Source of the DNA: Luteibacter rhizovicinus
GTDB taxonomy: Bacteria; Pseudomonadota; Gammaproteobacteria; Xanthomonadales; Rhodanobacteraceae
Reading direction: 5' to 3'
Length of the DNA stretch: 64,000 bases
Assembly: GCF_004342265.1 (NCBI RefSeq)
Contig: NZ_SMCS01000004.1
Location: 124,001 to 188,000, forward strand
In this document: positions 1 through 24,777 of the stretch, piece after piece
Position numbering within the stretch: the first letter of the stretch is position 1
Layout: the number at the start of each line of letters is the position of its first letter
The notes under the pieces: generated by a model
What the model was told of the DNA's origin: nothing
Database searches by the model: none
What the model saw: the letters and a program-made list of their open reading frames with translations, nothing else
Program-made: the position numbers and the translations under genes

Positions 1-1556
1 CGTCCGATTACCAGCGCCACTATCCCGGTCCGGGCGCCTTCTACTACAACATCTACGCGACGACGCCCGGCGCGACCATCGAGAACGGCGGTGTCGTGCC
101 GGCGGGTTATACAGCCTACGTGCGAGCACGTCGCTATGAGATCGGCGGCAATTTCGAAACCACCAACTCTGCGTACTACCTCGAGGACAACTGGTCGATC
201 ACACCGAACTTCCTGCTCAATGTCGGCCTGCGCAGCGACGCCTTCGACAACAAGGCGGGCAATGGTGCCAGCTATATCAAGATGGACAACATGATCGCGC
301 CGCGCCTCGGGTTCTCATGGGATCTGCACGGCGACGGTACGACCAAGATCTTCGGCAATCTGGGCCGCTATTACCTGCCCGTGGCCAACGTGATCAATAT
401 CAAGCAGGCGGGCGGCTTGCTCGACGAGCGCACGTACTACGCCTTCAACGGTTACCAGATACTCGACCGCAACGGTTCGCCTTACGCGATGCCGATCCTC
501 GGGCCGCAGATCGGTCAGGTCGACAACTCGCAGGGCAACGGTACCGTGGGCGATCTGCGTTCCGAAGTGGACCGCGATATGGACTCGGTCTACCAGGACG
601 AGGCGATCCTCGGTTTCCAGCAGGCGATCGACGACAAGTGGTCATGGGGTGTCAGCGGAACCTACCGCAAATTGCATAACGCGATTGACGACATGGAGAT
701 CAGCGCGACGCCCCAGTGCGGCGGCAATGGCTACGTCGGTTGGGTGATGGCCAATCCAGGCTCGAAGGTCACCGTTTATGGGGACACCAACTGCGACGGC
801 AAGCCGGACGGCTGGCTGACCGTCGACACGTCGAAGCAGGGCTGGGCGATGTACGACGCGCAGGGTAATTATCTTGGCCAGCGCGGATGGAAGAAGCCGA
901 AGCGCACCTATGCCTCCATGGAGCTTCAGGTGGATCGCGCATGGGACGAGAAGTGGGCGTTCAATGCGTCGTACGTGCTGTCATGGAACCGCGGCAATGC
1001 GGAAGGCCCGGTGAATTCGGACACCAACTTCGACGACACCGGCCGCACGGAAAACTTCGACGATCCGTGGGTCAACCTCAGCAGCGGTTATCTGCCGAAC
1101 GATCATCGCCACCAGTTCAAGTTCCGTGGCACGTACGCAATCAACAAGCACTGGCAGGTGGGCGCCGATCTGGTCCTGCTCTCGGGCAGCCCGATCACCG
1201 GCTATGGCGTGGGCAATCCATACGACGCGACCGTGTACCACAGCTATTTCATCTGCGTGCAGAACTGTGCGGACCCGGTGTCGGAAAACCGGGTTTACCA
1301 GTCCTCGCCGCGTGGCAAGGAGCGGACGCCGTGGACGTATAACCTCGGCGCGAGCGTGACCTATCTGCTTCCCGTCAGCGATAAGAACAATCTGCGCGTG
1401 AAGCTTGCCGTCTATAACCTGCTTAACCAGCAGCGCACCCTTGGCGTGGACCAGGACCTCCAGACCTCGGTCGGCGGCACCAGTTCGACCTATCTCCAGC
1501 CGCAGCGGTTCCAGTCTCCCCGCTTCGGCCAGTTGACGGTTTCGCTGGATTTCTGA
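1..1556 (+). CDS. Oar-like TonB-dependent receptor, C-terminal part (5' end outside window)
   Basis: The frame is open from the first bases and gives about 517 residues of outer-membrane beta-barrel, ending in Phe as expected for a BAM substrate (VSLDF at the end). Repeated segments such as LRSDAFDNKAGN, APRLGFSWDLHGDGTTK, FGNLGRYYLP and YNLLNQQRTLG match the barrel of Oar/carboxypeptidase-regulatory-like TonB-dependent receptors. The full-length receptor at 7811 carries the same segments (APRLGFSWDVYGDA, YGNAGRYYL), so the two are paralogues. The plug domain and signal peptide are upstream of the window. It probably imports a peptide or glycan-derived substrate; the substrate is not visible from the sequence. 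A strong terminator follows directly. Confidence 0.9.
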   Translation, partial: SDYQRHYPGPGAFYYNIYATTPGATIENGGVVPAGYTAYVRARRYEIGGNFETTNSAYYLEDNWSITPNFLLNVGLRSDAFDNKAGNGASYIKMDNMIAPRLGFSWDLHGDGTTKIFGNLGRYYLPVANVINIKQAGGLLDERTYYAFNGYQILDRNGSPYAMPILGPQIGQVDNSQGNGTVGDLRSEVDRDMDSVYQDEAILGFQQAIDDKWSWGVSGTYRKLHNAIDDMEISATPQCGGNGYVGWVMANPGSKVTVYGDTNCDGKPDGWLTVDTSKQGWAMYDAQGNYLGQRGWKKPKRTYASMELQVDRAWDEKWAFNASYVLSWNRGNAEGPVNSDTNFDDTGRTENFDDPWVNLSSGYLPNDHRHQFKFRGTYAINKHWQVGADLVLLSGSPITGYGVGNPYDATVYHSYFICVQNCADPVSENRVYQSSPRGKERTPWTYNLGASVTYLLPVSDKNNLRVKLAVYNLLNQQRTLGVDQDLQTSVGGTSSTYLQPQRFQSPRFGQLTVSLDF

Positions 1557-1569
1557 TGTTCTCTCCCCT

Positions 1570-1600
1570 GGCGCCCCGATGGATGGGGCGCCTTCTTTTT
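1570..1600 (+). terminator. Rho-independent terminator of the first TonB-dependent receptor
   Basis: A perfect 8-bp stem GGCGCCCC/GGGGCGCC with a 7-nt loop is followed by TTCTTTTT. It lies 13 bp after the receptor stop, so the receptor ends transcription before lysA. This also argues against an upstream lysA start at 1556, which would place the hairpin inside the coding sequence. Confidence 0.85.
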
Positions 1601-1615
1601 CCGGGAATGCCCATC

Positions 1616-2884
1616 ATGATCGCCAGCTCCGATAGTCATGCCGTCGAAACCGTATTCGACGGCGTCGATCCGCACGCGCTCGCGCAGGCGGTCGGCACCC
1701 CCTGTTACGTGTACTCGGCCGCGACGATCCGCCATCGCATCGCCAGTCTTGCGACGGCACTTCGCAGCCGGCCGGCTACGCTTTGTTATGCCGTGAAGGC
1801 CAATCCCAGTTTCGCGGTCCTCCAGCTGATGGCTGCCGAAGGTGTCGGCGCGGATATCGTTTCCGAGGGCGAAATGTGGCGCGCGTTACGCGCGGGCATT
1901 CCCGCCGGGCGTATCGTCTTTTCCGGTGTCGGGAAGCAGGACAGGGAAATTCTCGCCGCGCTGGACGCCGGCATCTCGCGTTTCAACGTCGAATCGGCGG
2001 ACGAGCTGGCATCGCTGCAACGGCTCGCCAGCGAACGCGGCCGCGTGGCTCACGCCGCCGTCCGTGTGAATCCCGATGTCGACGCCTTGACGCACGCGAA
2101 GATCAGCACCGGCAAGTCGGAGAACAAGTTCGGCGTCAGTATCGACGAGGCGCGCCGCTGGTTTGCCGGAAGCGGTTCGCTTTCCCATGTGCGGCTCGAT
2201 GGCCTGCACGTACATATCGGCTCGCAGATCGTCGATGTCGCACCGTTTCGTCTTGCCATCGGCAGGGTGGGCGACCTGTGGCGCGAACTGGTCGCGGCGG
2301 GTCATGCGATCCGCAGCATCGACGTCGGCGGCGGCCTTGGCGTTCGCTATCGCGCGAGCGACCGCGCGGTCGATATGGCTGGCTATGTTTCGGCGATTCG
2401 CGAGGCGCTGACAGGATTCGATGGCGCCCTGCTGCTTGAGCCGGGGCGCTACCTTGTCGCTGAGGCTGGCGTGCTGCTGACGCGCGTGTTGCGTGTGAAG
2501 CAGGGCGACGAACGTCAGTTCCTCGTGCTGGATGCGGCCATGAACGATCTGGCCCGGCCCAGCCTGTACGACGCCTGGCACGATATCGTCCCCCTGCACG
2601 AGACGCCACGATCGATGCAGGTGTACGACGTGGTCGGCCCCGTTTGCGAGACCGGCGACACGTTCGCGCGTGAACGCGAGATGGAGGCATGCCGCCCGGG
2701 CGACCTGGTGGCCATCCTGGGGGCGGGAGCCTATGGTGCGTCCATGGCCAGTACGTACAACTCGCGTCCGCTGGCCGCCGAAGTCATGGTTGAAAACGGG
2801 CGCTACGCGGTCGTGCGCAGGCGGCAAACCTTCGATGAAATGATTGCCGGCGAGCAGCCGGCGAACGACTGGCAGATAGCATGA
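1616..2884 (+). CDS. lysA: Diaminopimelate decarboxylase (fold type III PLP enzyme)
   Basis: Converts meso-diaminopimelate to L-lysine in the cytoplasm. The PLP-binding lysine is in CYAVKAN (about residue 61). Other family signatures are HVHIGSQI, the glycine loop DVGGGLGVRY, LEPGRYLVAEAG, the active-site CETGD, and GAYGASMASTYNSRP near the end. From the chosen ATG it is 422 aa, a normal LysA length. I chose 1616 because GGGA sits about 9 nt upstream; in-frame ATGs at 1607 and 1556 are possible, but the latter runs through the terminator. Its stop overlaps the next start (ATGA), so it is translationally coupled to a secreted dipeptidase. This suggests a role in using diaminopimelate from wall peptides as well as in lysine synthesis (inference). 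Confidence 0.88.
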   Translation: MIASSDSHAVETVFDGVDPHALAQAVGTPCYVYSAATIRHRIASLATALRSRPATLCYAVKANPSFAVLQLMAAEGVGADIVSEGEMWRALRAGIPAGRIVFSGVGKQDREILAALDAGISRFNVESADELASLQRLASERGRVAHAAVRVNPDVDALTHAKISTGKSENKFGVSIDEARRWFAGSGSLSHVRLDGLHVHIGSQIVDVAPFRLAIGRVGDLWRELVAAGHAIRSIDVGGGLGVRYRASDRAVDMAGYVSAIREALTGFDGALLLEPGRYLVAEAGVLLTRVLRVKQGDERQFLVLDAAMNDLARPSLYDAWHDIVPLHETPRSMQVYDVVGPVCETGDTFAREREMEACRPGDLVAILGAGAYGASMASTYNSRPLAAEVMVENGRYAVVRRRQTFDEMIAGEQPANDWQIA

Positions 2885-5532
2885 AAACGATCCACGCGGC
2901 GGCGCTGTCCCTTCTTCTGGCCAGTCCGCTCGCGCGGGCGGAGCAGGATCCTCCGATCACGATCGATACCCATGTCGATATTCCACTGTCCTATATGCAC
3001 GACCCGCGCTTCGATGCGGGCAAGGACAGCGTGCTGAAGGTCGATCTGCCGAAGATGAAACGCGGTGGCCTGGACGCTGCGTTCTTCGTGATCTACGTGG
3101 AACAGGGGCCGCTGACGCCAGCCGGCTATGCGAAGGCCGTCGCGCAGGCAGCGCGTAAGTACGATGACATCGATCTGATGCTGGCGCGTTACCCGGATCG
3201 CATCCGGCTGGCCCGGCGACCGGAAGACGCGGTGGCCAACCGTGCGGCTGGCCGTCTTTCGGCGATGATCGGCATCGAGAACGGGTATTCGCTGGGTCAC
3301 GATCTGAATCGGCTAGATGCGGCCTATGCTCGCGGCGCGCGCTATATAGGACTCGCCCATGTCGGCAACAACGATCTTTGTGGCAGTTCGCTGCCGAAGG
3401 CGGAACTTGGCGACAAGCCGGACAGCAACCTTGGCCTGAGCGACTTCGGTCGCGCGGTGGTCCATCGGGCGAACCAGCTCGGGATCATGGTCGATATCTC
3501 GCACGCATCGGATGCCTGCGTACGCGATGTGCTGGCCGCTTCGTCCGTGCCGATCATAGCGTCGCATTCTTCGGCACGGGCGCTTACCGATCATCCGCGT
3601 AACCTCCCGGACGATCTGCTCCGTGCGATAGCGGCGAAGGGCGGCGTGATCCAGGCGGTGGCGTATAAGGAATTCCTGAAGAAGGACCCCGCGCGCGAGG
3701 CGGCGGAAAAGAAGCTGCAGACGGACGTGGCGAAGGGTGCGGGCGACGCGGAGTACGACAGCGAAAAGCACGATTACCTGCCCGCGTATGCCGAGGGCAT
3801 GCTTCGCATCCAGCAGACGCATCCTCTGGCGACGCTGGAAGACTTCCTCGACCACATCGAGCACATGGTGAAGGTCGCCGGCGTGGATCACGTCGGCATT
3901 GCCTCGGATTTCGACGGCGGTGGCGAGGTGACGGGCTGGATGGATGCATCGGAAACCCGCCATGTCACGGCGGGACTGCGTCGACGTGGCTTCAGCGATG
4001 CGGATATCGCGAAGATATGGGGCGGCAACCTGTTGCGGGTATGGGGCGTCGTCACGCAGGCAGCGACACCGTATGACCGTCTGTTCGACGAAGCCATGCG
4101 GCGTTACGACTTGCCGGGCCTGGCGGTCGGTGTCATCGAGAACGGCCGGGTCGTTTATACGCGCACCGCAGGCGAGCGCATCGCCGGTTCCGGTCAGGTC
4201 ATCGATCGCGACACGCTCTTCAAGATCGCATCCAACAGCAAGGCGATGACCACGGCGTTGCTGGCGCGCCTCGTTGCCGCCGGCAAACTGCGCTGGGACG
4301 ACCCGGTGACGAAGTACCTTCCCGATTTCCGTATGTACGACCCGTGGGTTGCCCGCGAGATCGAAGTGCGCGACCTGCTGATTCATAACAGCGGCCTGCG
4401 CGAGGGTGCGGGCGACCTGATGCTGTGGCCGGAGCCGAACACATTCACGCGCAAGGACATCCTTGCCGGACTGGCGTACCTGAAACCCGAACACAGTTTT
4501 CGTTCGCGTTACGCGTACGACAACCTGCTTTATGTCGTTGCGGGCGAGGTGGCGGCGAGCGCGGGTGGAGCGCCGTACGAAACACTGTTGCGTCGCGAAG
4601 TATTCGCGCCGCTCGGTCTTGCACGCTGCCAGATCGGACAGTGGCGGCGCGACGAGGTAGGCAACGTAGCGCAGCCGCATCTGCGTTTGCACGACCGGAA
4701 TGTAGTGACGAACGTCGACGGCGATACCGTGCCGGCCATTACGTCGGCCGCCGCCGGCGGCGTGCGTTGCAGTCTGGACGATATGTTGCGCTGGGCGAAC
4801 AACTGGCTGGCGCCGACCGCGGCGCAGCAGACGTGGCTTACGGCAGCCCAGCGCGAACCGCTCTGGTCCGCACAGATGCCGATGCCGGAGGGCGAGCGTC
4901 GCCGCGCATGGAACGACACGCATCTGTACGCCTATGGCTATGGCTGGCGACTGGCCGATGTCGACGGCATGTGGAGCGTTTCGCACACCGGCACGCTTTC
5001 GGGTATGTATTCGACGGTCAGTCTGCTGCCGAAGCAGCAGTCCGGGTTCGTGATCCTGATGAACGGAGGGGGCGAGGACGCACGCGACGCACTCGCCGAA
5101 GCGCTGCTCAAGCGCTTCACCGCGCCGGGCGAGGATCGCGATGTGGCGTACTACGCCGACCGTATCTCGGCGGAGTCGAAAGCAGGCAAGGCCTCGCACG
5201 CACCGGATACGGCAGGCCGCAAAGCCGTCACCGCCGCGGAAGGAAAGACATTTCTGGGGGTGTGGCGCGACCCGTGGTTCGGTGAAGTATCGATTTGCCC
5301 GGCCAACGACGGGGTCGCATTCGTATCCGCCCGGTCCCCCGTGATGACCGGTATGTTGAAGCGGGTCGGCAAGCGATATCTCGTACAGTGGAACCGCGAA
5401 CAGGTCGATGCCGAGCCGTGGCTCGACCTGACCGACCCCTCAACGCTCCACCTGGCCAAGGTCGATCCCGATGCCGACTTCAGCAACGATTTCGAAGATC
5501 TCGCGTTCGCCCGTGTCCGCGATTGCCCGTAG
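2881..5532 (+). CDS. Secreted M19 membrane-type dipeptidase fused to a serine beta-lactamase-like hydrolase
   Basis: An 883-aa two-enzyme protein. A signal peptide (cleavage near SPLARA-EQ) precedes an M19/renal-dipeptidase domain (about residues 25-395) with all expected metal ligands: DTHVD, the bridging Glu in GIENG, the histidines in DISHASD and IASHSS, and the Asp in ASDFDGGG. A second domain (about 400-760) has the serine beta-lactamase/DD-peptidase triad: SNSK (SxxK), YDN (YxN) and HTG. The last ~110 residues look like the small DUF3471-type domain often found after such hydrolases. M19 enzymes cleave dipeptides, including D-containing ones; the second domain is probably a D-aminopeptidase or esterase-like enzyme. 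ATG overlaps the lysA stop. Domain calls are firm; substrate is inferred. Confidence 0.85.
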   Translation: MKTIHAAALSLLLASPLARAEQDPPITIDTHVDIPLSYMHDPRFDAGKDSVLKVDLPKMKRGGLDAAFFVIYVEQGPLTPAGYAKAVAQAARKYDDIDLMLARYPDRIRLARRPEDAVANRAAGRLSAMIGIENGYSLGHDLNRLDAAYARGARYIGLAHVGNNDLCGSSLPKAELGDKPDSNLGLSDFGRAVVHRANQLGIMVDISHASDACVRDVLAASSVPIIASHSSARALTDHPRNLPDDLLRAIAAKGGVIQAVAYKEFLKKDPAREAAEKKLQTDVAKGAGDAEYDSEKHDYLPAYAEGMLRIQQTHPLATLEDFLDHIEHMVKVAGVDHVGIASDFDGGGEVTGWMDASETRHVTAGLRRRGFSDADIAKIWGGNLLRVWGVVTQAATPYDRLFDEAMRRYDLPGLAVGVIENGRVVYTRTAGERIAGSGQVIDRDTLFKIASNSKAMTTALLARLVAAGKLRWDDPVTKYLPDFRMYDPWVAREIEVRDLLIHNSGLREGAGDLMLWPEPNTFTRKDILAGLAYLKPEHSFRSRYAYDNLLYVVAGEVAASAGGAPYETLLRREVFAPLGLARCQIGQWRRDEVGNVAQPHLRLHDRNVVTNVDGDTVPAITSAAAGGVRCSLDDMLRWANNWLAPTAAQQTWLTAAQREPLWSAQMPMPEGERRRAWNDTHLYAYGYGWRLADVDGMWSVSHTGTLSGMYSTVSLLPKQQSGFVILMNGGGEDARDALAEALLKRFTAPGEDRDVAYYADRISAESKAGKASHAPDTAGRKAVTAAEGKTFLGVWRDPWFGEVSICPANDGVAFVSARSPVMTGMLKRVGKRYLVQWNREQVDAEPWLDLTDPSTLHLAKVDPDADFSNDFEDLAFARVRDCP

Positions 5533-6232
5533 CGCATGCGTGTGGCTGCTGCTCTCGACAGGTGGCGCGTACGCGGCGGAGCCACCGCCCACGATATCGC
5601 CGGCAAGCACGCCGGCCGAGGCGGGGATGGTCGATATTCGCGACCTGGTTCCGGATATCGAAGAGAGCATTCACTACGCGGGTAGCGACAACTTTACCGG
5701 CGCTCCGGTGGACGGTTACGCCGCACCGCGCTGCTATCTGCGTACCTCCGCCGCGCAGGCGCTGCAACGCGTCGAGACGGCGCTTCGCAAGGATGGCATG
5801 CGGCTGATGGTGTGGGATTGCTATCGTCCCGCGCGCGCCGTGCAGGCCTTCGTGCGCTGGGCACACGACCTCGCCGACGTGCGAACCAAGGCTCTGCATT
5901 ATCCGAACCTCGATAAGAGCGCGCTGCTGGGCGATTACATCGCGCCCATCTCCGGGCACAGCAAGGGCGCGACGGTCGATCTCACGTTGATGCGCTGCGT
6001 GCCGGGCGGCAAGGGATGCCTGCCGCTGGACATGGGTACGGATTTCGATTTCTTCGATCCTCTCGCCAATACCGATTCGCCGACGGCGACGCCCGGACAG
6101 CGGGCTAACCGGCAACGGCTGGTCAAGGCCATGGCGGCAGCGGGCTTCGTGAATTATCCGCAGGAGTGGTGGCATTACACGTTGCCATCCGCGGCGGAGC
6201 CTGGCGTTATCTACGACGTACCGGTGGAGTAA
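5513..6232 (+). CDS. ddpX: D-alanyl-D-alanine dipeptidase (VanX/DdpX, M15D), secreted
   Basis: A zinc dipeptidase cleaving D-Ala-D-Ala. The M15D zinc site is complete: SGHSKGATVD (SxHxxGxxxD, His and Asp ligands) and EWWH (catalytic Glu and third His). The N-terminal WDCYRPARA region carries the conserved Arg of the family. The start is uncertain: GTG at 5513 gives a compact signal peptide ending GGAYA-AE, while ATG at 5471 gives a longer N-terminus overlapping the upstream gene by 62 bp. Either way the product should be exported. Standing between a dipeptidase fusion and a serine hydrolase, with no vanH or vanA-type ligase nearby, it fits wall-peptide catabolism rather than glycopeptide resistance. 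Confidence 0.85.
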   Translation: MSAIARSACVWLLLSTGGAYAAEPPPTISPASTPAEAGMVDIRDLVPDIEESIHYAGSDNFTGAPVDGYAAPRCYLRTSAAQALQRVETALRKDGMRLMVWDCYRPARAVQAFVRWAHDLADVRTKALHYPNLDKSALLGDYIAPISGHSKGATVDLTLMRCVPGGKGCLPLDMGTDFDFFDPLANTDSPTATPGQRANRQRLVKAMAAAGFVNYPQEWWHYTLPSAAEPGVIYDVPVE

Positions 6233-6234
6233 TC

Positions 6235-7281
6235 ATGCGCAAAGCATTGGGCTGGTTGGCGGTCGCTGTTGTGGTGTTGTCCGGTTGTGCCGGCAGCGCG
6301 GCGAAACGGAACCGGGATGTCGACGGACTGATGCAGCGCTATACCGGTAACGTACCCGGTGCATCGTTGCTGGTGCTGAAGGACGGTGCTCCGGTTGTCC
6401 GTCGCGGCTATGGCATGGCCGACCTGGAGCAGGGTGTCGCCGCCACGTCCGCCACGAATTACCGGCTTGCATCGGTCACCAAACAGTTCACGGCGGCCTC
6501 GATTCTCCTGCTGGTGCAGGACGGTCGTGTCGGCCTCGACGATCCCGTGCGCCGCTGGCTGCCGTCCCTGCCTTCTGCCGCCGACGGCATTACCATCCGT
6601 CATCTGCTGACGCATACAGGCGGCCTGATCGATTACGAAGACATCATGGCGCCGGACACGAAAGTGCAGCTTCGCGACGTCGACGTGCTGCATCTGCTGG
6701 AGAGCACGAATCGTACGTACTTCCAGCCCGGTAGCCAGTACCGCTACAGCAACGGCGGTTACGCCATGCTCGCGCTCATCGTCGAGAAAGCATCCGGCAT
6801 GAGTTTCCAGGCTTTCCTGCACGAGCGCATTTTCCAGCCCCTGGGCATGGCGCACACGCTTGCCTATGTTCAGGGCGGGCCATCCGTCGACCATCGTGCA
6901 TTCGGGTATTCGGAGGAGGGCGGTGGCTGGACGCGCACCGACCAGAGCATGACCAGCGCGGTCCTCGGCGACGGGGGTATCTATTCTTCGGTGGACGATC
7001 TGGCTCGCTGGGATGCCGCGCTATACGACGACCGGCTGCTGATCGACGAGTCTCGCCGCCTTGCTTTCCGCCCGTGGACGCATACGGACGATCCCACCAT
7101 CGAATACGGTTTCGGCTGGCGCATTACCGGCGAGACACTGTGGCATTCGGGCGAAAGTATCGGCTTCAGGAATGTCATCGTGAGATATCCCGGCCACCAT
7201 CTCACCGTGATCCTGCTGACCAACCGGAACGATCCCGAGCCGTATCGCACGGCGCTGGCGGTGGCTGCATTGTTTCGCTAA
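6235..7281 (+). CDS. Serine hydrolase lipoprotein (beta-lactamase/DD-peptidase family)
   Basis: A 348-aa protein with a lipoprotein signal (MRKALGWLAVAVVVLSGC, lipobox LSGC). The serine-hydrolase catalytic set is present: SVTK (SxxK), YSN (YxN) and HSG near the end in place of the KTG box. The ATG at 6235 follows a GGTGGAG ribosome site by 5 nt and starts 3 bp after the upstream stop. It resembles class C beta-lactamase-fold peptidases and esterases; a true beta-lactamase function cannot be assumed. It is last in the run lysA, dipeptidase fusion, ddpX, hydrolase, and is membrane-anchored where released wall peptides would be processed. Confidence 0.82.
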   Translation: MRKALGWLAVAVVVLSGCAGSAAKRNRDVDGLMQRYTGNVPGASLLVLKDGAPVVRRGYGMADLEQGVAATSATNYRLASVTKQFTAASILLLVQDGRVGLDDPVRRWLPSLPSAADGITIRHLLTHTGGLIDYEDIMAPDTKVQLRDVDVLHLLESTNRTYFQPGSQYRYSNGGYAMLALIVEKASGMSFQAFLHERIFQPLGMAHTLAYVQGGPSVDHRAFGYSEEGGGWTRTDQSMTSAVLGDGGIYSSVDDLARWDAALYDDRLLIDESRRLAFRPWTHTDDPTIEYGFGWRITGETLWHSGESIGFRNVIVRYPGHHLTVILLTNRNDPEPYRTALAVAALFR

Positions 7282-7301
7282 ACCCGCCCCGCTCTCTGTA
7301 G

Positions 7302-7429
7302 GAGCCCGCTTGCGGGCGAAAGCCAACGGAGCGGAGATGCTGTGCGTGGCATCCGCAGCCCGTAGATCGGGCTCGCGGAGGTGAACATTCGTCTTCCTCG
7401 CCCTGTTGGCTTTCGCCCGCAAGCGGGCT
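7302..7429 (+). repeat. 128-bp element with long terminal inverted repeats, copy 1
   Basis: Terminal arms GAGCCCGCTTGCGGGCG...AAGCCAAC (7302-7327) and its reverse complement (7405-7429) enclose about 77 bp. The inner part (GTGGCATCCGCAGCCC, GATCGGGCTCGCGGAG) is also shared, in reverse complement, with 24527-24655. The arms contain the short palindrome GCCCGCTTGCGGGC, typical of REP-like elements of pseudomonads and xanthomonads. It begins 20 bp after the stop of the serine hydrolase gene and could act in mRNA 3'-end stability or termination. Confidence 0.85.
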
Positions 7430-7810
7430 ACTACAATGTGCATGCGTCACAATATGGCCGTCTAAACGTCGATACGGTTGACACGCCCTTCCAGTGTGCT
7501 ACAAATGGTGCGCAGCAGCAGACAAAGGGGCTGTCCGTGCACTTCCCACATCCGGCTTTTCGCCTTTCCCGTCGCCATGCGCGTATCGCGCCGCGATGTT
7601 GTATCTAGAGCGCGCCTCGCGCATGGCCTGAGGCCCCGCGGGTAGTCGCGCTCCTGTCCGCTCGACCGTACTGACTCGAATAAACGCCGCGCAGGCGTAA
7701 CGGGCGGCTTTGTCCGTCGATCCTGCCAGCCGCTGCGAACGCGCCCGCCGCCCTTATAGAAGGCGGTGCGCCGGAGGCTGGCTTTCTTTTGGGAAGGGGT
7801 AGATAGCTCG
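7430..7810 (+). other. Non-coding leader upstream of the second Oar-like receptor
   Basis: This ~380-bp stretch holds no convincing gene. It contains a good sigma-70-type promoter (7478-7505), which would give a ~300-nt 5' untranslated leader for the receptor at 7811. A short dyad CCGCC...GGCGG lies near 7748-7770, just before the GGGAAGGGG ribosome-binding stretch. No known riboswitch was recognised. Confidence 0.5.
7478..7505 (+). promoter_or_regulatory. Candidate sigma-70 promoter for the TonB-dependent receptor
   Basis: TTGACA (7478-7483), a 16-bp spacer and TACAAA (7500-7505). It is the best match to the consensus in this gap and points to the receptor gene. Transcription would begin near 7512. 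Confidence 0.45.
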
Positions 7811-10800
7811 ATGGCAACGCCGTTACTGAAAAAATCGCTGCTCGTCGCGGCGATGTTCGCCGCGCTGGCCGATGGCGCATGGGCGCAGTCGACCACCGGA
7901 ACGATCTATGGCCAGGTCAAGGCGAACGATGGCGATATCGTCCGCGTGGACAACGGGGCTGGCCTGACCCGCGAAACATCCGTGGATGCACGCGGCAAGT
8001 ACTCGATCGCGCAGTTGCCGCTCGGCACCTATACGGTATCGGTGATAAGGCAGGGCGCGCCGGCACAGACCCGCGACAACATCGCACTACGCGTCGGTTC
8101 GGGCGTGGAGGTGTCTTTCGCGGATCGCGATGTACAGGACCTGAGCGGCGTGAGCGTGTCGGCGCACGTAGCGCCATCGATCGACGTAACGTCCGTGGAT
8201 TCGCGGACGATCGTCACCGCGGACCAGCTAGCGAAACTGCCGCTCGCGCGCTCGTCCGAAGCGATTGCCCTGCTGGCGCCCGGCGTCGTCGACAACAGCG
8301 GCGGCTACAAGAGCGCCACGGGCAATTCGCTGGTGACCTTCGGCGGCTCCGCCGCGAGCGAGAACGCCTATTACATCAACGGATTCAGCACCACCGATCC
8401 GTTGCGCGGTTTCGGCGGCCTGTCGCTGCCGTATGGCGCGATCGACCAGCAGGAAGTCTATACGGGCGGCTATAGCGCGCAGTACGGCCGGTCCGATGGC
8501 GGTGTCATCAACGTGGTGGGCAAGCGCGGTACGAACGAATGGCATGGGGGCACCCAGGTCATCTGGGAGCCGAACGCCGCCCGTGCGCAGAGCATCGACA
8601 GCTACTACACGAACGGCCTGCCGCCGCAGCCGCGCGCCGGATCGCTGTATGCGCCGAACCGCGCCAATACCGAAACGAGTACGACAGTCAGTGCCTATGC
8701 CGGCGGTCCGCTGATCAAGGACAAACTATTTCTTTTCGCCGCGGCGGAAGTGGAGCGGCAGACCGGCAACACGGTCAGCGACGTGACAAAGACGCAGGCG
8801 CCCGATACGAGATACCGCTACAACCTGCCGCGCTGGTACGCGAAGCTGGACTGGAATATCGACGACAGCAACATCGTCGAAGTGACCGGTGTGTCGGACA
8901 AGAGCGAAAAGCAGGGAGCGATCTACGATTACGATTACACCGCGCGGCAGCGCGGCGCGTACATCAATGGCGCCAGCAATGAAAAATACGGTGGCGACGT
9001 CTATACCGCGAAATACACGGGTTACATCACCGACAGCCTGACCGTGACGGCGCAGTACGGCAAGATGGATACGGTCAGTTACATCAGTCCACCCGGTTAC
9101 GATCCCAGCGCGACGTATATCGGCGGACTGGTCTACCAGAATCCCGCGATCACGGGCGGCTCGACCCGCAACGGTAACCAGACCGTTTTGTCGCTGACCA
9201 ATCCCGGACGAGGGAACACCACGACCAATACGCGGTTCGACGTCAGCTATGTGCTGGGCGATCACACGCTTACGGCCGGCATCGACAATCAGACGGCGGT
9301 TGCGCGCGACCAGGGCAGTTCGAGTTCGGGGCCGGGCAACATCTGGACCTATGCACAGGGCCAGCCGAATCTTCCGATCTCGACGGGTCTGGGCGTCGCC
9401 GCGCCCGGAGCGTATCCGGGCGGCGAGAACGGTTACTACGTCGTCAAGGGTGTGAGTTCGAGCCTGGCCACGGTGCGTTCGGCCCAGCGCGCGCAGTTCG
9501 TCGAGGACAAGTGGCAGGTCAGCGACCGGCTGCTGTTGACGCTGGGTCTTCGCAACGACCAGTTCACCAATTACAACGCCAACAGCGAAGCGTTCATCCG
9601 GCAGACGAAGCCGCAGTGGGCGCCCCGGCTGGGTTTCAGCTGGGACGTTTACGGCGACGCGAGCTTCAAGGTGTATGGCAACGCGGGGCGCTACTACCTC
9701 GGGCTGCCACTAAATCCGGCGTTGAACGCGGCGGGCGGTTACCTCAGTACCAGCCAGTACTTCACCTATACCGGCATCGCGAACGACGGCACGCCGACCG
9801 GCCTGACGGCTATCGCGCCGGGCGTGCCGGTATCGTCGAATAACGCGCTGGGCATCCTGCCCGATCCGCGTACGGTGACCGCGAAGGGAATCAAAGCCGA
9901 GAATCAGGACGAATACATCCTCGGCTTCACGAAGCTTGCCGGCGATCACTGGCTGTACGGCGCCAAGGTGACCTATCGAAAGCTGCGCAACGCGATCGAC
10001 GATTTCTGCGATATCGACGCCATCGTCGCCAAGGGGCGGTCGCTGGGTTATGCGATCGACGCCAAGCAGGCCAACAGTTGCTATCTGTTCAATCCGGGCC
10101 GGGCGAACACGTTCAACCTGAAGGATACGTCCGGCAACTATGTCGCCGTGCCGGTGACGAACAAGGAGCTTGGCTTCGACGCGCTCAAGCGTGCGTATTA
10201 CAGCCTGGAACTGTTGCTGGAGCATCCGTTCGACGGCCGCTGGTACGGGAAGGCCGGCTATACGTTCTCGCGCAGCTACGGCAACACCGAAGGCCAGCTT
10301 CGCTCCGACCTCAACCAGACCGCCACCTCCACCAGCGAGGACTGGGACAACGGCGCGATCATGGAGAACACCAACGGTCCCCAGAACAACGACCACACGC
10401 ATCAGATCAAACTGTTCGGCTATTACCAGATCACACCCGAGTGGCTCGCCTCGGCGAATATCAGTGCGATCTCGGGGACGCCTCGCCACTGCCTGGGCTA
10501 CTACGGCCCGAACCACGAAGACCCGGTCGGTTACGCCCCGTACTACCACTTCTGCGATGGCCAACCGTCTCCTCCAGGCAAACAGGGCCGGTTGCCCTGG
10601 GTACGGCAGATCGACCTTGGCCTGACTTACCGCCCCGATTTCGCGGATAAGAAACTGGCCTTTAGTGCGAGCATCTTCAACCTGCTCAACGAACAGCATG
10701 CGCTTCAGCGTTATCCGGTATCCGAGTCGGGTCCGGGCGTGGCCGAGGCCGCTTACGGCGTCGTGACCCAGCGGCAAGCCCCGCGTTATGGGCGACTCAG

Positions 10801-10819
10801 CGTCTCGTACGACTTCTGA
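7811..10819 (+). CDS. Oar-like TonB-dependent receptor with carboxypeptidase-regulatory-like N-terminal domain
   Basis: A 1002-aa outer-membrane receptor. The signal peptide MATPLLKKSLLVAAMFAALA...WAQ is followed by a CarboxypepD_reg-like Ig-fold domain (about residues 25-110, TIYGQVKANDGD ... GKYSIAQLPLGTYTV). A plug domain comes next (SVSAHVAPSIDVTS ... TVDSRTIVTADQLAKLPLARS), then a 22-strand-type barrel ending LSVSYDF with terminal Phe. The ATG at 7811 is chosen because a typical signal peptide starts there after a purine-rich GGGAAGGGG; an in-frame start at 7766 would add a non-signal extension. It is a paralogue of the truncated receptor at 1-1556. Flanking of the peptidase set by two such receptors suggests uptake of wall peptides (inference). 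Confidence 0.92.
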   Translation: MATPLLKKSLLVAAMFAALADGAWAQSTTGTIYGQVKANDGDIVRVDNGAGLTRETSVDARGKYSIAQLPLGTYTVSVIRQGAPAQTRDNIALRVGSGVEVSFADRDVQDLSGVSVSAHVAPSIDVTSVDSRTIVTADQLAKLPLARSSEAIALLAPGVVDNSGGYKSATGNSLVTFGGSAASENAYYINGFSTTDPLRGFGGLSLPYGAIDQQEVYTGGYSAQYGRSDGGVINVVGKRGTNEWHGGTQVIWEPNAARAQSIDSYYTNGLPPQPRAGSLYAPNRANTETSTTVSAYAGGPLIKDKLFLFAAAEVERQTGNTVSDVTKTQAPDTRYRYNLPRWYAKLDWNIDDSNIVEVTGVSDKSEKQGAIYDYDYTARQRGAYINGASNEKYGGDVYTAKYTGYITDSLTVTAQYGKMDTVSYISPPGYDPSATYIGGLVYQNPAITGGSTRNGNQTVLSLTNPGRGNTTTNTRFDVSYVLGDHTLTAGIDNQTAVARDQGSSSSGPGNIWTYAQGQPNLPISTGLGVAAPGAYPGGENGYYVVKGVSSSLATVRSAQRAQFVEDKWQVSDRLLLTLGLRNDQFTNYNANSEAFIRQTKPQWAPRLGFSWDVYGDASFKVYGNAGRYYLGLPLNPALNAAGGYLSTSQYFTYTGIANDGTPTGLTAIAPGVPVSSNNALGILPDPRTVTAKGIKAENQDEYILGFTKLAGDHWLYGAKVTYRKLRNAIDDFCDIDAIVAKGRSLGYAIDAKQANSCYLFNPGRANTFNLKDTSGNYVAVPVTNKELGFDALKRAYYSLELLLEHPFDGRWYGKAGYTFSRSYGNTEGQLRSDLNQTATSTSEDWDNGAIMENTNGPQNNDHTHQIKLFGYYQITPEWLASANISAISGTPRHCLGYYGPNHEDPVGYAPYYHFCDGQPSPPGKQGRLPWVRQIDLGLTYRPDFADKKLAFSASIFNLLNEQHALQRYPVSESGPGVAEAAYGVVTQRQAPRYGRLSVSYDF

Positions 10820-10829
10820 TGTGGGCCAG

Positions 10830-10864
10830 CCGTAGCGACTCGCCGGGTCGGCGGGTCGCTACGG
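10830..10864 (+). terminator. Hairpin after the receptor, possible terminator
   Basis: A perfect 10-bp stem CCGTAGCGAC/GTCGCTACGG with further inner pairing (CGCC/GGCG) starts 10 bp after the receptor stop. It lacks a clear T tract, so factor-independent termination is uncertain. Confidence 0.5.
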
Positions 10865-10907
10865 CGTTATCATCGGCTTCTTCGCCCGTACGATAACGAC
10901 CGTCCCC

Positions 10908-12524
10908 ATGACATCTTTTCGCTTCGCTCTGGCTCAGTTCGACTTTCCCGTTGGTGCCACCCACGCCAACGCTTTACGGGCCAAGGAGCTGGCCGACAAG
11001 GCCCGGGACCAGCTCAAGGCATCCCTCATCGCTTTTCCCGAGCTGACCCTGAGCGGCTATCCGCCGGAAGACCTGCTTCAGCGCCCGAGCTTCCTCGAAG
11101 CTTGTGCCGTGGAACTGTCCTCGCTGGCGCCGCGTATCGAAGGTATCGCCGCGGTGGTCGGGCATCCGGATACGCGCGGCGAAGTATTCAATGCCGCGAG
11201 CCTGCTCCGAGGCGGCGCGGTCGAGTGGACGTATCACAAGCAGGCGCTCCCCAATTACACCGTGTTCGACGAGAAACGCTACTTCCGCGCCGGCGAGCAC
11301 AGTCGCGTCTTCGAGATCGAGGGCGTGCGCGTCGGCATGTTGATCTGCGAGGACATATGGGAAGCCGAGCCGGCCGCGCACGCGGCGGCGGCGGGCGCCG
11401 AACTACTGCTCGTCATCAATGCATCGCCGTATGACAGCCGCCAGGCCGCTACCCGCGAACGTCTGCTGCGCCAGCGCGCCACCGAGAACGACGTGGCGAT
11501 CGCCTATGTCAACCTCGTCGGCGGCCAGGACGACCTGCTGTTCGATGGCGGGTCGCTGCTGGTACAGCGCAACGGGCACATCGCGGCGCGTGCGCCCTCG
11601 TTCGAGGAAATGCTGCTGGCGGTAGAGTTCGACAGCGCATCGCGCTCCCTGAAAGCCATCGACTGGCCCGAAACCGACGAAGGCGATCCGCATGTCGTCA
11701 TGTATGCGGGCCTCGTTCGCGGCGTCCACGATTACGTCTGCAAAAACCATTTCTCGGGCGTACTGCTTGGCCTGTCCGGCGGTATCGACTCGGCGCTGAC
11801 GCTGGCCATCGCGGTCGATGCGCTGGGCGCCGACCGGGTCACGGCCGTCATGATGCCCACGCGTTACACGTCCGACCTGTCGCTGCACGAAGCCAAGGCA
11901 CAGGCCGAGCATCTCGGCGTCGAATACCACGTTCTTCCCATCGAGAACATCTACGAATCCTTCGTCGGCACGCTGGCGCCGGTATTCGAGGGCAGGGCGC
12001 CAGATATCACCGAGGAAAACCTCCAGTCGCGTTCGCGCGGCGTGCTGCTGATGGCCATGTCGAACAAGACCGGCCGCCTGCTGCTGTCCACGGGCAACAA
12101 GAGCGAAATGGCCGTCGGTTACGCCACCCTCTACGGCGACATGTGCGGTGCGTATGCCCCGCTGAAGGATCTCTACAAGACGGTGGTCTACGACATTTCG
12201 CGCTGGCGCGCGGGGATCGATGGCGCCATTCCGAAGGCGGTGATCGAGCGTCCGCCATCGGCGGAGCTGCGCCACGAGCAGACCGATCAGGATTCGCTGC
12301 CGCCTTACGACGAACTGGACGCCATCCTGGAACGTTTCATCGAAGGCGAGCAATCGGCGGAAGACATCATCGCGGCCGGTTACGACGATGCGACCGTGCG
12401 CCGTGTGATCCGCATGGTTTTCGTCAATGAGTTCAAGCGTCGGCAGTCCGCGCCGGGGCCGCGGGTGACGACCAAGGCGTTCGGGCGTGAGCGTCGGTAT
12501 CCGATTACTTCTGGGTGGCGATAG
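10908..12524 (+). CDS. nadE: Glutamine-dependent NAD+ synthetase
   Basis: Makes NAD+ from deamido-NAD+, ATP and glutamine in the cytoplasm. The 538-aa protein is the two-domain type. An N-terminal nitrilase-like glutaminase domain (about 1-250) has the Glu-Lys-Cys triad in FPELTLSGY, YHKQALPNY and LICEDIWE. The C-terminal synthetase (about 265-538) has the pyrophosphatase P-loop GLSGGIDSAL, followed by STGNKSE. The length is normal for this class. It stands alone and is followed by the 305-bp repeat. Confidence 0.95.
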   Translation: MTSFRFALAQFDFPVGATHANALRAKELADKARDQLKASLIAFPELTLSGYPPEDLLQRPSFLEACAVELSSLAPRIEGIAAVVGHPDTRGEVFNAASLLRGGAVEWTYHKQALPNYTVFDEKRYFRAGEHSRVFEIEGVRVGMLICEDIWEAEPAAHAAAAGAELLLVINASPYDSRQAATRERLLRQRATENDVAIAYVNLVGGQDDLLFDGGSLLVQRNGHIAARAPSFEEMLLAVEFDSASRSLKAIDWPETDEGDPHVVMYAGLVRGVHDYVCKNHFSGVLLGLSGGIDSALTLAIAVDALGADRVTAVMMPTRYTSDLSLHEAKAQAEHLGVEYHVLPIENIYESFVGTLAPVFEGRAPDITEENLQSRSRGVLLMAMSNKTGRLLLSTGNKSEMAVGYATLYGDMCGAYAPLKDLYKTVVYDISRWRAGIDGAIPKAVIERPPSAELRHEQTDQDSLPPYDELDAILERFIEGEQSAEDIIAAGYDDATVRRVIRMVFVNEFKRRQSAPGPRVTTKAFGRERRYPITSGWR

Positions 12525-12551
12525 GCGGTTGTGCTTTGCGGCGTGTTGCTA

Positions 12552-12856
12552 GAAGAGCACCGTCATTCGGGGCGTCGTCGCATGGAACCAGCCGGCCCCC
12601 TCGCCGGGCCCACGTCGGGCGGTCGCTGCGCGACGCGGGTGGACTGGCGGGGCTCGGTGAGCGGGCTTCCTGCCCGCGCACCGAGGAAGGGGCGTCCTGC
12701 CCCTTCCCCCTTCGGGGCCTTTGCCGCCAGTCCACCCTCGCCCTCCTACCGGGCCCGGCGAGGGGGCCGGCTGGTTCCGCCGAGCGGTGAGGCAATGGGT
12801 GTGAAGAGCAAAGCGAACCGCTGACGTCTCCTTGCGCTACCTCACCCCTCACCGTC
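12552..12856 (+). repeat. 305-bp repeat with 28-bp inverted arms and nested hairpins, copy 1
   Basis: Nearly identical to 41064-41367 in the same orientation. The outer arms, 12584-12611 and 12751-12778, are perfect 28-bp inverted repeats (GGAACCAGCCGG.../...CCGGCTGGTTCC). Inside lie a 13-bp pair GGTGGACTGGCGG (12638-12650) and its complement (12724-12736), a hairpin CTCGGTG...CACCGAG, and a hairpin GAAGGGG...CCCCTTC. The short open frames crossing it follow the palindromes, not codon usage, and are not genes. It lies 27 bp past the nadE stop, between convergent nadE and bamD. Confidence 0.88.
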
Positions 12857-24404: not shown

Positions 24405-24526
24405 ATTGTCTTCCCCAGAAAGGCACCATGGCGTTATGCTGCGGTGCACGAAATGTCAGGCTTGCATAAAATGCGATGCCAGGTCAACAGCCGTTTAGAC
24501 GTCCAAAGAAATCCCGCTTTCTGTAC

Positions 24527-24655
24527 GAGCCCGCTTGCGGGCGAAAGCCAACAGGGCGAGGAAGCCTGATGCTCAGCTCCGCGAGCCCGATCTATGGGCT
24601 GCGGATGCCACGCACATCGTCACCGCTTCGTTGGCTTTCGCCCGCAAGCGGGCTC
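24527..24655 (-). repeat. 128-bp element, copy 2 (reverse orientation)
   Basis: The reverse complement of the element at 7302-7429, including the arms (24527-24552 and 24630-24655) and most of the interior (GGGCTGCGGATGCCACGCAC). The 26-bp arms are perfect inverted repeats. It lies between the divergent receptor and FmdB genes, so it is not a shared terminator here. Confidence 0.85.
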
Positions 24656-24777
24656 CTGCAAGCAAGCATTCGCGCCCATGGAAATAGAGGGATGTGCGCG
24701 CGCCCATTGAAAAGCCGGCCTTTGGACAGATAATGCCGGGCTACGGCGCGCAATGCGCCAGATCCGGAGCTTCCCCC

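Follow-up and report, generated by a model that had tools for sequence, protein, structure and literature searches.

A locus at the left edge of a 64,000-nucleotide (nt) stretch of Luteibacter rhizovicinus DNA (assembly GCF_004342265.1, contig NZ_SMCS01000004.1, positions 124,001 to 188,000; hereafter the window) probably serves the salvage of peptidoglycan stem peptides in Rhodanobacter-type bacteria. Peptidoglycan-peptide salvage is well supported by the gene context. A role in it for a second diaminopimelate decarboxylase (LysA) is likely, and a TonB-dependent receptor encoded beside the enzymes (receptor 1) may import the wall peptides. Salvage of this kind is already known, and the combination of genes described here is a new variant of it. 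A first-pass annotation of the window had proposed such a pathway. Its outline stands, but the heart of the locus, consisting of genes for a YkfB-like epimerase, a YkfC-like endopeptidase, a DUF819 protein and an RpiR-family regulator, lies outside the window and was not visible to that annotation. These genes, which supply the strongest evidence, are found on the stretch directly to the left (L003), which carries the rest of the locus. Within the window, the features are as follows (signal peptides and lipobox judged by eye).

3 to 1556, forward strand: 3′ part of the gene for Oar-like TonB-dependent receptor 1, which starts left of the window at L003:12563
1570 to 1600, forward strand: terminator-like hairpin plus T-run between receptor 1 and lysA, with similar elements at 24 of 28 receptor 1-lysA junctions
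1607 to 2884, forward strand: lysA2 (here lysA), stand-alone diaminopimelate decarboxylase; probable start at 1607 or 1616, with the longest frame opening at 1556
2881 to 5532, forward strand: fusion of an M19 dipeptidase and an S12 serine hydrolase with a signal-peptide-like start; metal and SxxK/YxN/HTG residues conserved
5513 to 6232, forward strand: gene for an M15D (VanX/DdpX-like) dipeptidase whose start is uncertain; the longest frame opens at 5471
6235 to 7281, forward strand: S12 serine hydrolase with a lipoprotein-like start, assigned by family scans and motif residues
7297 to 7435, no strand: 37-nt inverted repeat resembling repetitive extragenic palindromic (REP) elements, 3′ of the enzyme genes, found by repeat search
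7811 to 10819, forward strand: Oar-like TonB-dependent receptor 2, a separate unit, here only in the window genome (G000) and G020 among the fetched relatives

All six genes described in the first-pass annotation are present, as judged from open frames and family scans. The four from lysA to the S12 lipoprotein gene form a tight run in which lysA and the fusion gene are coupled by an ATGA overlap at 2881-2884, as had been noted. The spacing between the dipeptidase and lipoprotein genes, given earlier as 3 bp, is 2 bases (end at 6232, start at 6235), and the dipeptidase probably starts near the GTG at 5513, overlapping the end of the fusion gene. The fusion protein has 883 amino acids and matches M19 with 325.6 bits and the Beta-lactamase/S12 family with 214 bits. 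Complete receptor 1 has 997 amino acids (L003:12563-15556) and an Oar-like layout of CarboxypepD_reg, Plug and OMP_b-brl_4 in the family scan.

Divergent from receptor 1 and a gene for a transglutaminase-like protein (tgase), the left arm holds seven genes. They encode a DUF819 protein, the YkfC-like NlpC/P60 protein, the YkfB-like epimerase, a MurR/RpiR-family regulator that probably controls this arm, a YkuD protein, an SDF (GltP-like) symporter, and a flavin adenine dinucleotide (FAD) oxidoreductase of the Pfam DAO family, an assignment at family level that gives no substrate. The YkuD-domain protein (L003:5498-6268) has a signal-peptide-like start, and a homologue occurs in 31 of 34 mapped loci.

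The epimerase finds its best match in the Protein Data Bank in the B. subtilis L-Ala-D/L-Glu epimerase 1jpm (339.6 bits). Its residues K162, K267, R24, D321 and D323 are kept in 44/44 retained orthologues, and we take Arg24 (Glu-binding) and Asp321xAsp323 to be functional sites. In the YkfC-like protein, Y202 aligns with the residue of 3h41 that matches Tyr118 of the SH3b domain and is invariant in 20/20 orthologues. Furthermore, the equivalents of Tyr118, Tyr226, Trp228, Asp237, Cys238 and Arg255 are invariant in the same number of sequences (n=20), and Ser239 is Ser or Thr. The YkfC-like protein has a signal-peptide-like start and the YkfB-like protein has none. The catalytic lysines of B. 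subtilis YkfB are K162 and K268 (PMC5808125; statements credited to PMC-numbered papers refer to the accessible portions of those papers).

Conservation of these genes was followed in 61 genomes (the window genome plus 60 relatives, 33 genera; G handles), from which 34 loci (L handles) were fetched and mapped for gene order. Matches to ykfB occur in 34 genomes, to ykfC in 35 and to the vanX-like gene in 35, all within the same 11 of the 33 genera. The three are present together in 34/61, two of the three are found in G020, and 26 genomes have none. They lie within 15 kb of each other in 31 of 34 genomes; vanX is elsewhere in G043 and G053, and in G007 the genes are on separate contigs. Among the mapped loci, ykfB is found in 33, ykfC in 34, vanX in 32, M19 in 18 and lysA in five, and tgase and receptor 1 are both present in 22. 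The window genome and 33 of the 34 mapped loci in all have ykfB and ykfC side by side, with G020 (L053) lacking ykfB. In eight loci of the genus (G001, G005, G010, G011 and G016-G019) a small form is seen, wherein ykfB-ykfC-duf819 diverges from vanX and tgase, receptor 1 and M19 are missing. Gene order in the mapped relatives is conserved well above chance expectation. Of the conditions that the first-pass annotation named as refuting it, lack of conservation as a unit therefore does not hold: the salvage locus is kept as a unit in Lysobacterales. The motif residues, which apart from the YkfB lysines we presume to be catalytic, are also kept: LysA 21/21, M19 27/27, fusion S12 30/30, VanX-like 43/43, YkfB 44/44 and S12 lipoprotein 24/24 (short, too divergent or interrupted rows excluded).

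The decarboxylase encoded in the window exceeds the cut-off of the TIGR01048 equivalog (469.8 vs 297.9 bits), and scores far under those for D-ornithine/D-lysine and citrylornithine decarboxylases, so that these identities were rejected. The first-pass annotation had asked whether lysA has a second copy elsewhere in the genome. It does: a LysC-LysA fusion scores 1204.3 bits against a cut-off of 802 (NF006515), and the lysA of the window is therefore not the housekeeping gene. Two observations make 1607 or 1616 a more probable start of this lysA than 1556: alignments with most orthologues begin only near residues 25-34, and the long frame has the hairpin (1570-1592 plus its T-run) within its first 45 bases.

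Relatives of this lysA were found in nine of the 61 genomes (E <= 1e-60). Six are close (at least 68% identity) and stand beside M19/S12 genes, accompanied by ykfB in five cases and by dgcN-dgcA in G030. The remaining three share 39-49% identity (L069 and L070, which were fetched, and one in G035). In a family-wide survey of 233 genomes from 26 genera, close orthologues are present in 83 genomes and 14 genera. We read the neighbourhoods of 20 of these loci, hand-picked from the 83 at one to three per genus to cover 11 of the 14 genera, the remaining three being covered by the first sample. Seventeen hold the ykfB-type cluster and three hold dgcN-dgcA instead, and in 20/20 an S12 gene lies downstream of lysA on the same strand (fusion type in 19, and the lipoprotein type only in L167). 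A third set, the best 80 named loci, partly represents the same genomes (e.g. L090 and L177), and the sets are therefore not additive. Among these 80, 16 share at least 64% identity; 13 have ykfB, two have dgcA-dgcN and one is on a contig too short to judge. They come from Rhodanobacter, Dyella, Fulvimonas, Frateuria, Luteimonas and further relatives. L075 (3.8 kb), on which only lysA was found, was excluded from the context counts.

The other 64 of these 80 loci (47-54% identity; 57 are at least 10 kb) are mostly alphaproteobacterial by title. None of the 64 has ykfB, ykfC, vanX, receptor 1, tgase or dgcA; dgcN occurs in two, rpiR in two, M19 in one, S12 in three and DUF819 in one. The hits are concentrated in three gammaproteobacterial members of the 64 (lysA 47-48% identity), other wall-salvage-like clusters in which names such as MurQ-like are our reading of Pfam hits. 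L096 combines lysA with NamZ, a MurQ-like SIS protein, a BadF-type kinase, GH3, Ala racemase, S12 and RpiR; L104 has an amidase-S12 fusion, gamma-glutamyltranspeptidase, DgcN, M19 and Ala racemase; and L111 has an LD-carboxypeptidase, S12, DUF819, a TonB receptor and RpiR.

DgcN and DgcA act on free D-glutamate (D-Glu) by N-acetylation. Their genes stand with lysA and S12 in L058, L076, L082, L160, L161 and L178, and a vanX-like gene is added in L160 and L161. Both proteins exceed the NCBIfam cut-offs (NF041892, NF042940) in L058 and L082, and were found by tblastn in the other loci. In the lysA tree, the dgc-type rows form one clade (96/94), which includes L075, and the ykfB and dgc contexts thus reflect one switch and not many. 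Presence of lysA on the ykfB tree requires four changes, a test that does not separate loss from gain. The position of lysA beside either an L-Ala-D-Glu epimerase or a D-Glu racemase pathway suggests gamma-D-Glu-meso-diaminopimelate (mDAP) as the common source.

The receptor and the enzymes are probably uncoupled at least in part, because a terminator-like hairpin (fold below -8 kcal/mol with at least five T in the next eight bases) occurs at 24/28 receptor 1-lysA junctions (15/15 in a first set and 9/13 in a second; missing in L162, L163, L165 and L179). Given this recurrent element, it is doubtful that receptor 1 and lysA form one simple operon. Hairpins are found at few of the other junctions (lysA-M19 0/15, M19-S12 3/23, S12-vanX 1/29, vanX-S12b 1/23, tgase-receptor 1/31, ykfC-ykfB 1/44, ykfB-rpiR 0/33 and duf819-ykfC 2/36), and where lysA is absent they occur at 5/13 receptor 1-M19 and 2/3 receptor 1-S12 junctions. 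A terminator consensus scan of the window found seven sites against 7.1 expected in shuffles, so the weight of the receptor 1-lysA hairpin rests on its repeated position. A sigma-70 promoter scan of positions 1-12600 found none and was uninformative.

A further line of evidence concerns D-Glu. Genes for MurL (776.8 vs 700 bits; scan of the window genome alone) and MurD adjoin the LysC-LysA fusion. In the same genome no glutamate racemase (MurI) lies above the cut-off (best 29.7 vs 146.65 bits); no search was aimed at D-Glu aminotransferase, the second known route for D-Glu. The racemase model passed in one of the 61 genomes (G054), with weaker matches in 18. Two of the fetched loci, L065 and L067 (G043 and G053), carry a weak hit to this model (50 and 47.1 bits, below the cut-off) just after an RpiR-S12 pair and about 5-7 kb from ykfB. 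With MurL present and MurI not, there would be no racemase to convert D-Glu from old walls back, and YkfB would open such a route. Likewise, Xanthomonas oryzae is described as lacking MurI, with no D-to-L activity detected for its MurL (PMC5808125). The MurL system is one of biosynthesis and not of salvage, and it may explain a need for a D-Glu outlet.

We infer substrates, enzyme locations, transport, regulation and flow as follows. Wall peptides would pass through the outer membrane, with receptor 1 as the importer in loci that have it. L-Ala-D-Glu, mDAP and amino acids would enter the cytoplasm, for which the DUF819 protein and the SDF symporter are candidate carriers. DUF819 may import the dipeptide or D-Ala; the family has been placed in the CPA/AT transporter superfamily (PMC8396727), and of 128 Neisseria meningitidis genomes, 75 are reported to have a DUF819 gene after an M15 metallopeptidase gene (PMC12671195). 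Cytoplasmic YkfB would convert L-Ala-D-Glu to L-Ala-L-Glu. A D-amino acid may be the substrate of the FAD oxidoreductase, and mDAP would be decarboxylated to lysine by the second LysA, with no need for the housekeeping LysC-LysA fusion.

Several observations weigh against this scheme. The YkfC-like enzyme, unlike that of the Bacillus route, has Asn (Asn358) in place of Asp256 in 20/20 orthologues. Asp256 binds the free amine of L-Ala and is described as essential to specificity for a free N-terminal L-Ala (PMC2954226), and the exact substrate of the YkfC-like enzyme may therefore differ. A solved relative, 3m1u, likewise has Asn at this position. Judged by its context, the enzyme may work like YkfC even though this one defining feature fails. 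The epimerase falls below NCBIfam equivalog cut-offs (255.3 vs 500 bits, NF041118; 108.2 vs 343, NF011708), as do the VanX-like protein against the VanX equivalog (175.1 vs 320) and the S12 matches, and no M19 equivalog for the fusion was found among the 25 listed of 47 families. Receptor 1 is missing, along with tgase, from 12 of the 34 mapped loci, and receptor 1 is also absent from 4/17 ykfB-type lysA loci and 3/13 named loci; M19 is absent from 16/34 mapped and 9/20 lysA loci. Only one of 23 genomes of the genus, that of the window, has this lysA, which marks it as accessory, and the lysA genes of L069 and L070 (46-49%) have none of these neighbours. Also, AmpG, Mpl and two S66 LD-carboxypeptidases are encoded elsewhere in the genome, together with one partial M14 match, so that ordinary recycling need not use the locus. 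The locus would then supplement ordinary recycling, a point in favour of catabolic salvage.

The strongest competing explanation differs from salvage of incoming walls only in the source of the peptides: the locus would recycle the products of the cell's own periplasmic turnover, and the receptor would recapture leaked peptides or have another ligand. We regard this as a serious possibility, if one well short of even chances. In favour of this explanation, homologues of both receptors are lacking from the fetched 20 kb in seven of the small-form loci (all those named above except G016), and tgase occurs without receptor 1 in 4/20 lysA loci. However, AmpG and Mpl already offer internal recycling, and catabolism of incoming peptides would better account for an extra LysA, an outer-membrane receptor and hydrolases that look secreted. 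An unlikely explanation is general scavenging of D-containing dipeptides or peptides, including nonribosomal ones, by a system that is not specific for peptidoglycan. Although M19, M15D and S12 are broad families and the YkfC-like enzyme lacks Asp256, the conservation of both LysA and YkfB, with the presumed Glu-binding Arg24, argues for wall peptides, as do the association of lysA orthologues with YkfB or DgcNA, both D-Glu routes, and the NamZ, MurQ-like and amidase genes in the distant lysA clusters.

The adjacency of receptor 1 and lysA might instead be accidental, with lysA a redundant gene of lysine biosynthesis. Its rarity in the genus and the hairpin that separates it from the receptor in most loci are consistent with this idea, but the clustering of lysA with S12 and a D-Glu route in 20/20 sampled family loci, and its presence in three distant wall-salvage-like clusters, make it improbable. 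Least probable is a role in resistance to glycopeptides and beta-lactams by the VanX-like and beta-lactamase-family enzymes, which the family names alone might suggest. The VanX equivalog cut-off is missed, scores fall more than 300 bits short of the listed class C beta-lactamase models, the scanned locus proteins include nothing VanA- or VanH-like, and the gene context is catabolic. On the basis of these cut-offs and this context, we rejected antibiotic resistance.

Salvage of wall peptides thus remains our preferred reading, and parts of it have precedents. The first-pass annotation knew of no described pathway with this gene set. That holds only in part: the YkfB-YkfC core corresponds to a route for murein peptides already published for Bacillus (PMC2954226). 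As in B. subtilis ykfA-D, genes for an L-Ala-D/L-Glu epimerase and a gamma-D-Glu-diamino-acid endopeptidase with NlpC/P60 and SH3 domains are adjacent, and as in B. cereus, YkfC has a signal-peptide-like start and YkfB does not (PMC2954226). The same source reports neighbouring ykfB and ykfC from other phyla as well, and suggests extracellular breakdown of the peptides in B. cereus. In contrast to the B. subtilis cluster, a YkfA-type LD-carboxypeptidase and a dipeptide ATP-binding cassette transporter are absent from the scanned locus proteins (the two S66 genes lie elsewhere), and the TonB receptor, transglutaminase-like protein, M19-S12 fusion, VanX-like protein, RpiR regulator and lysA are added.

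The MpaA-YcjG-PepD pathway of E. coli similarly splits gamma-D-Glu-mDAP and epimerizes L-Ala-D-Glu (PMC2954226, PMC9928106), although MpaA is a metallocarboxypeptidase whereas an NlpC/P60 enzyme with a signal-peptide-like start is present here. Chlamydial YkfC, also an NlpC/P60 enzyme, was shown to release mDAP from the tripeptide; the bacterium that makes it is obligately intracellular, and the accessible portion of that paper mentions no receptor-lysA cluster (PMC9928106). The N-acetylglucosamine TonB receptors of Caulobacter offer a parallel in TonB-dependent uptake of a wall component beside catabolic genes, but there the substrate is a sugar and the partners are a phosphotransferase system permease and NagA/NagB, whereas here it would be a peptide (PMC13046382). 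DgcN-DgcA, which in one clade of relatives takes the place of YkfB in the cluster around this lysA, differs in acting on free D-Glu and not on the dipeptide, and was not seen in the locus of the window genome. By titles and abstract openings, and mostly without subscription papers, our literature search found no TonB receptor for wall peptides and no lysA in wall-peptide salvage.

The locus had also been described as lying between two Oar-like receptors. Both are present, and receptor 2 has the N-terminal CarboxypepD_reg, plug and large barrel of this type. However, it is a separate unit, and of the fetched relatives only G020 has it, like G000, between the enzymes and nadE. About 530 bases, comprising a long leader and the 37-nt inverted repeat (7297-7333/7399-7435), separate it from the S12 gene. 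The REP-like core GTAGGAGCCCGCTTGCGGGCGA (at most one mismatch) forms two facing pairs in the window, at 7297-7435 and 24523-24659; it recurs at 24523 and 24638, and the four matches compare with none in 100 shuffles. G020 (L053), the sole genome among 23 of the genus without a ykfB match, keeps ykfC, the vanX-like gene and a homologue of receptor 2 (84%) by nadE.

A broader proposal, which we offer tentatively and rate at a little under even chances, is that the locus exemplifies a Gram-negative 'peptidoglycan utilisation locus'. A dedicated TonB-dependent receptor would import wall peptides and secreted enzymes would dismantle them, while a catabolic LysA and an interchangeable YkfB or DgcN-DgcA module would consume mDAP and D-Glu, in a lineage with MurL and without glutamate racemase. 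What makes the locus notable is that it brings its own lysA and a candidate receptor in the outer membrane together with wall-peptide salvage. If the salvage reading is true, a candidate outer-membrane receptor for wall peptides is named, and the second LysA, present in about one third of the family genomes, gains a role. It would also suggest how MurL bacteria without glutamate racemase dispose of D-Glu from old walls, and feeding on the walls of other bacteria would become directly testable.

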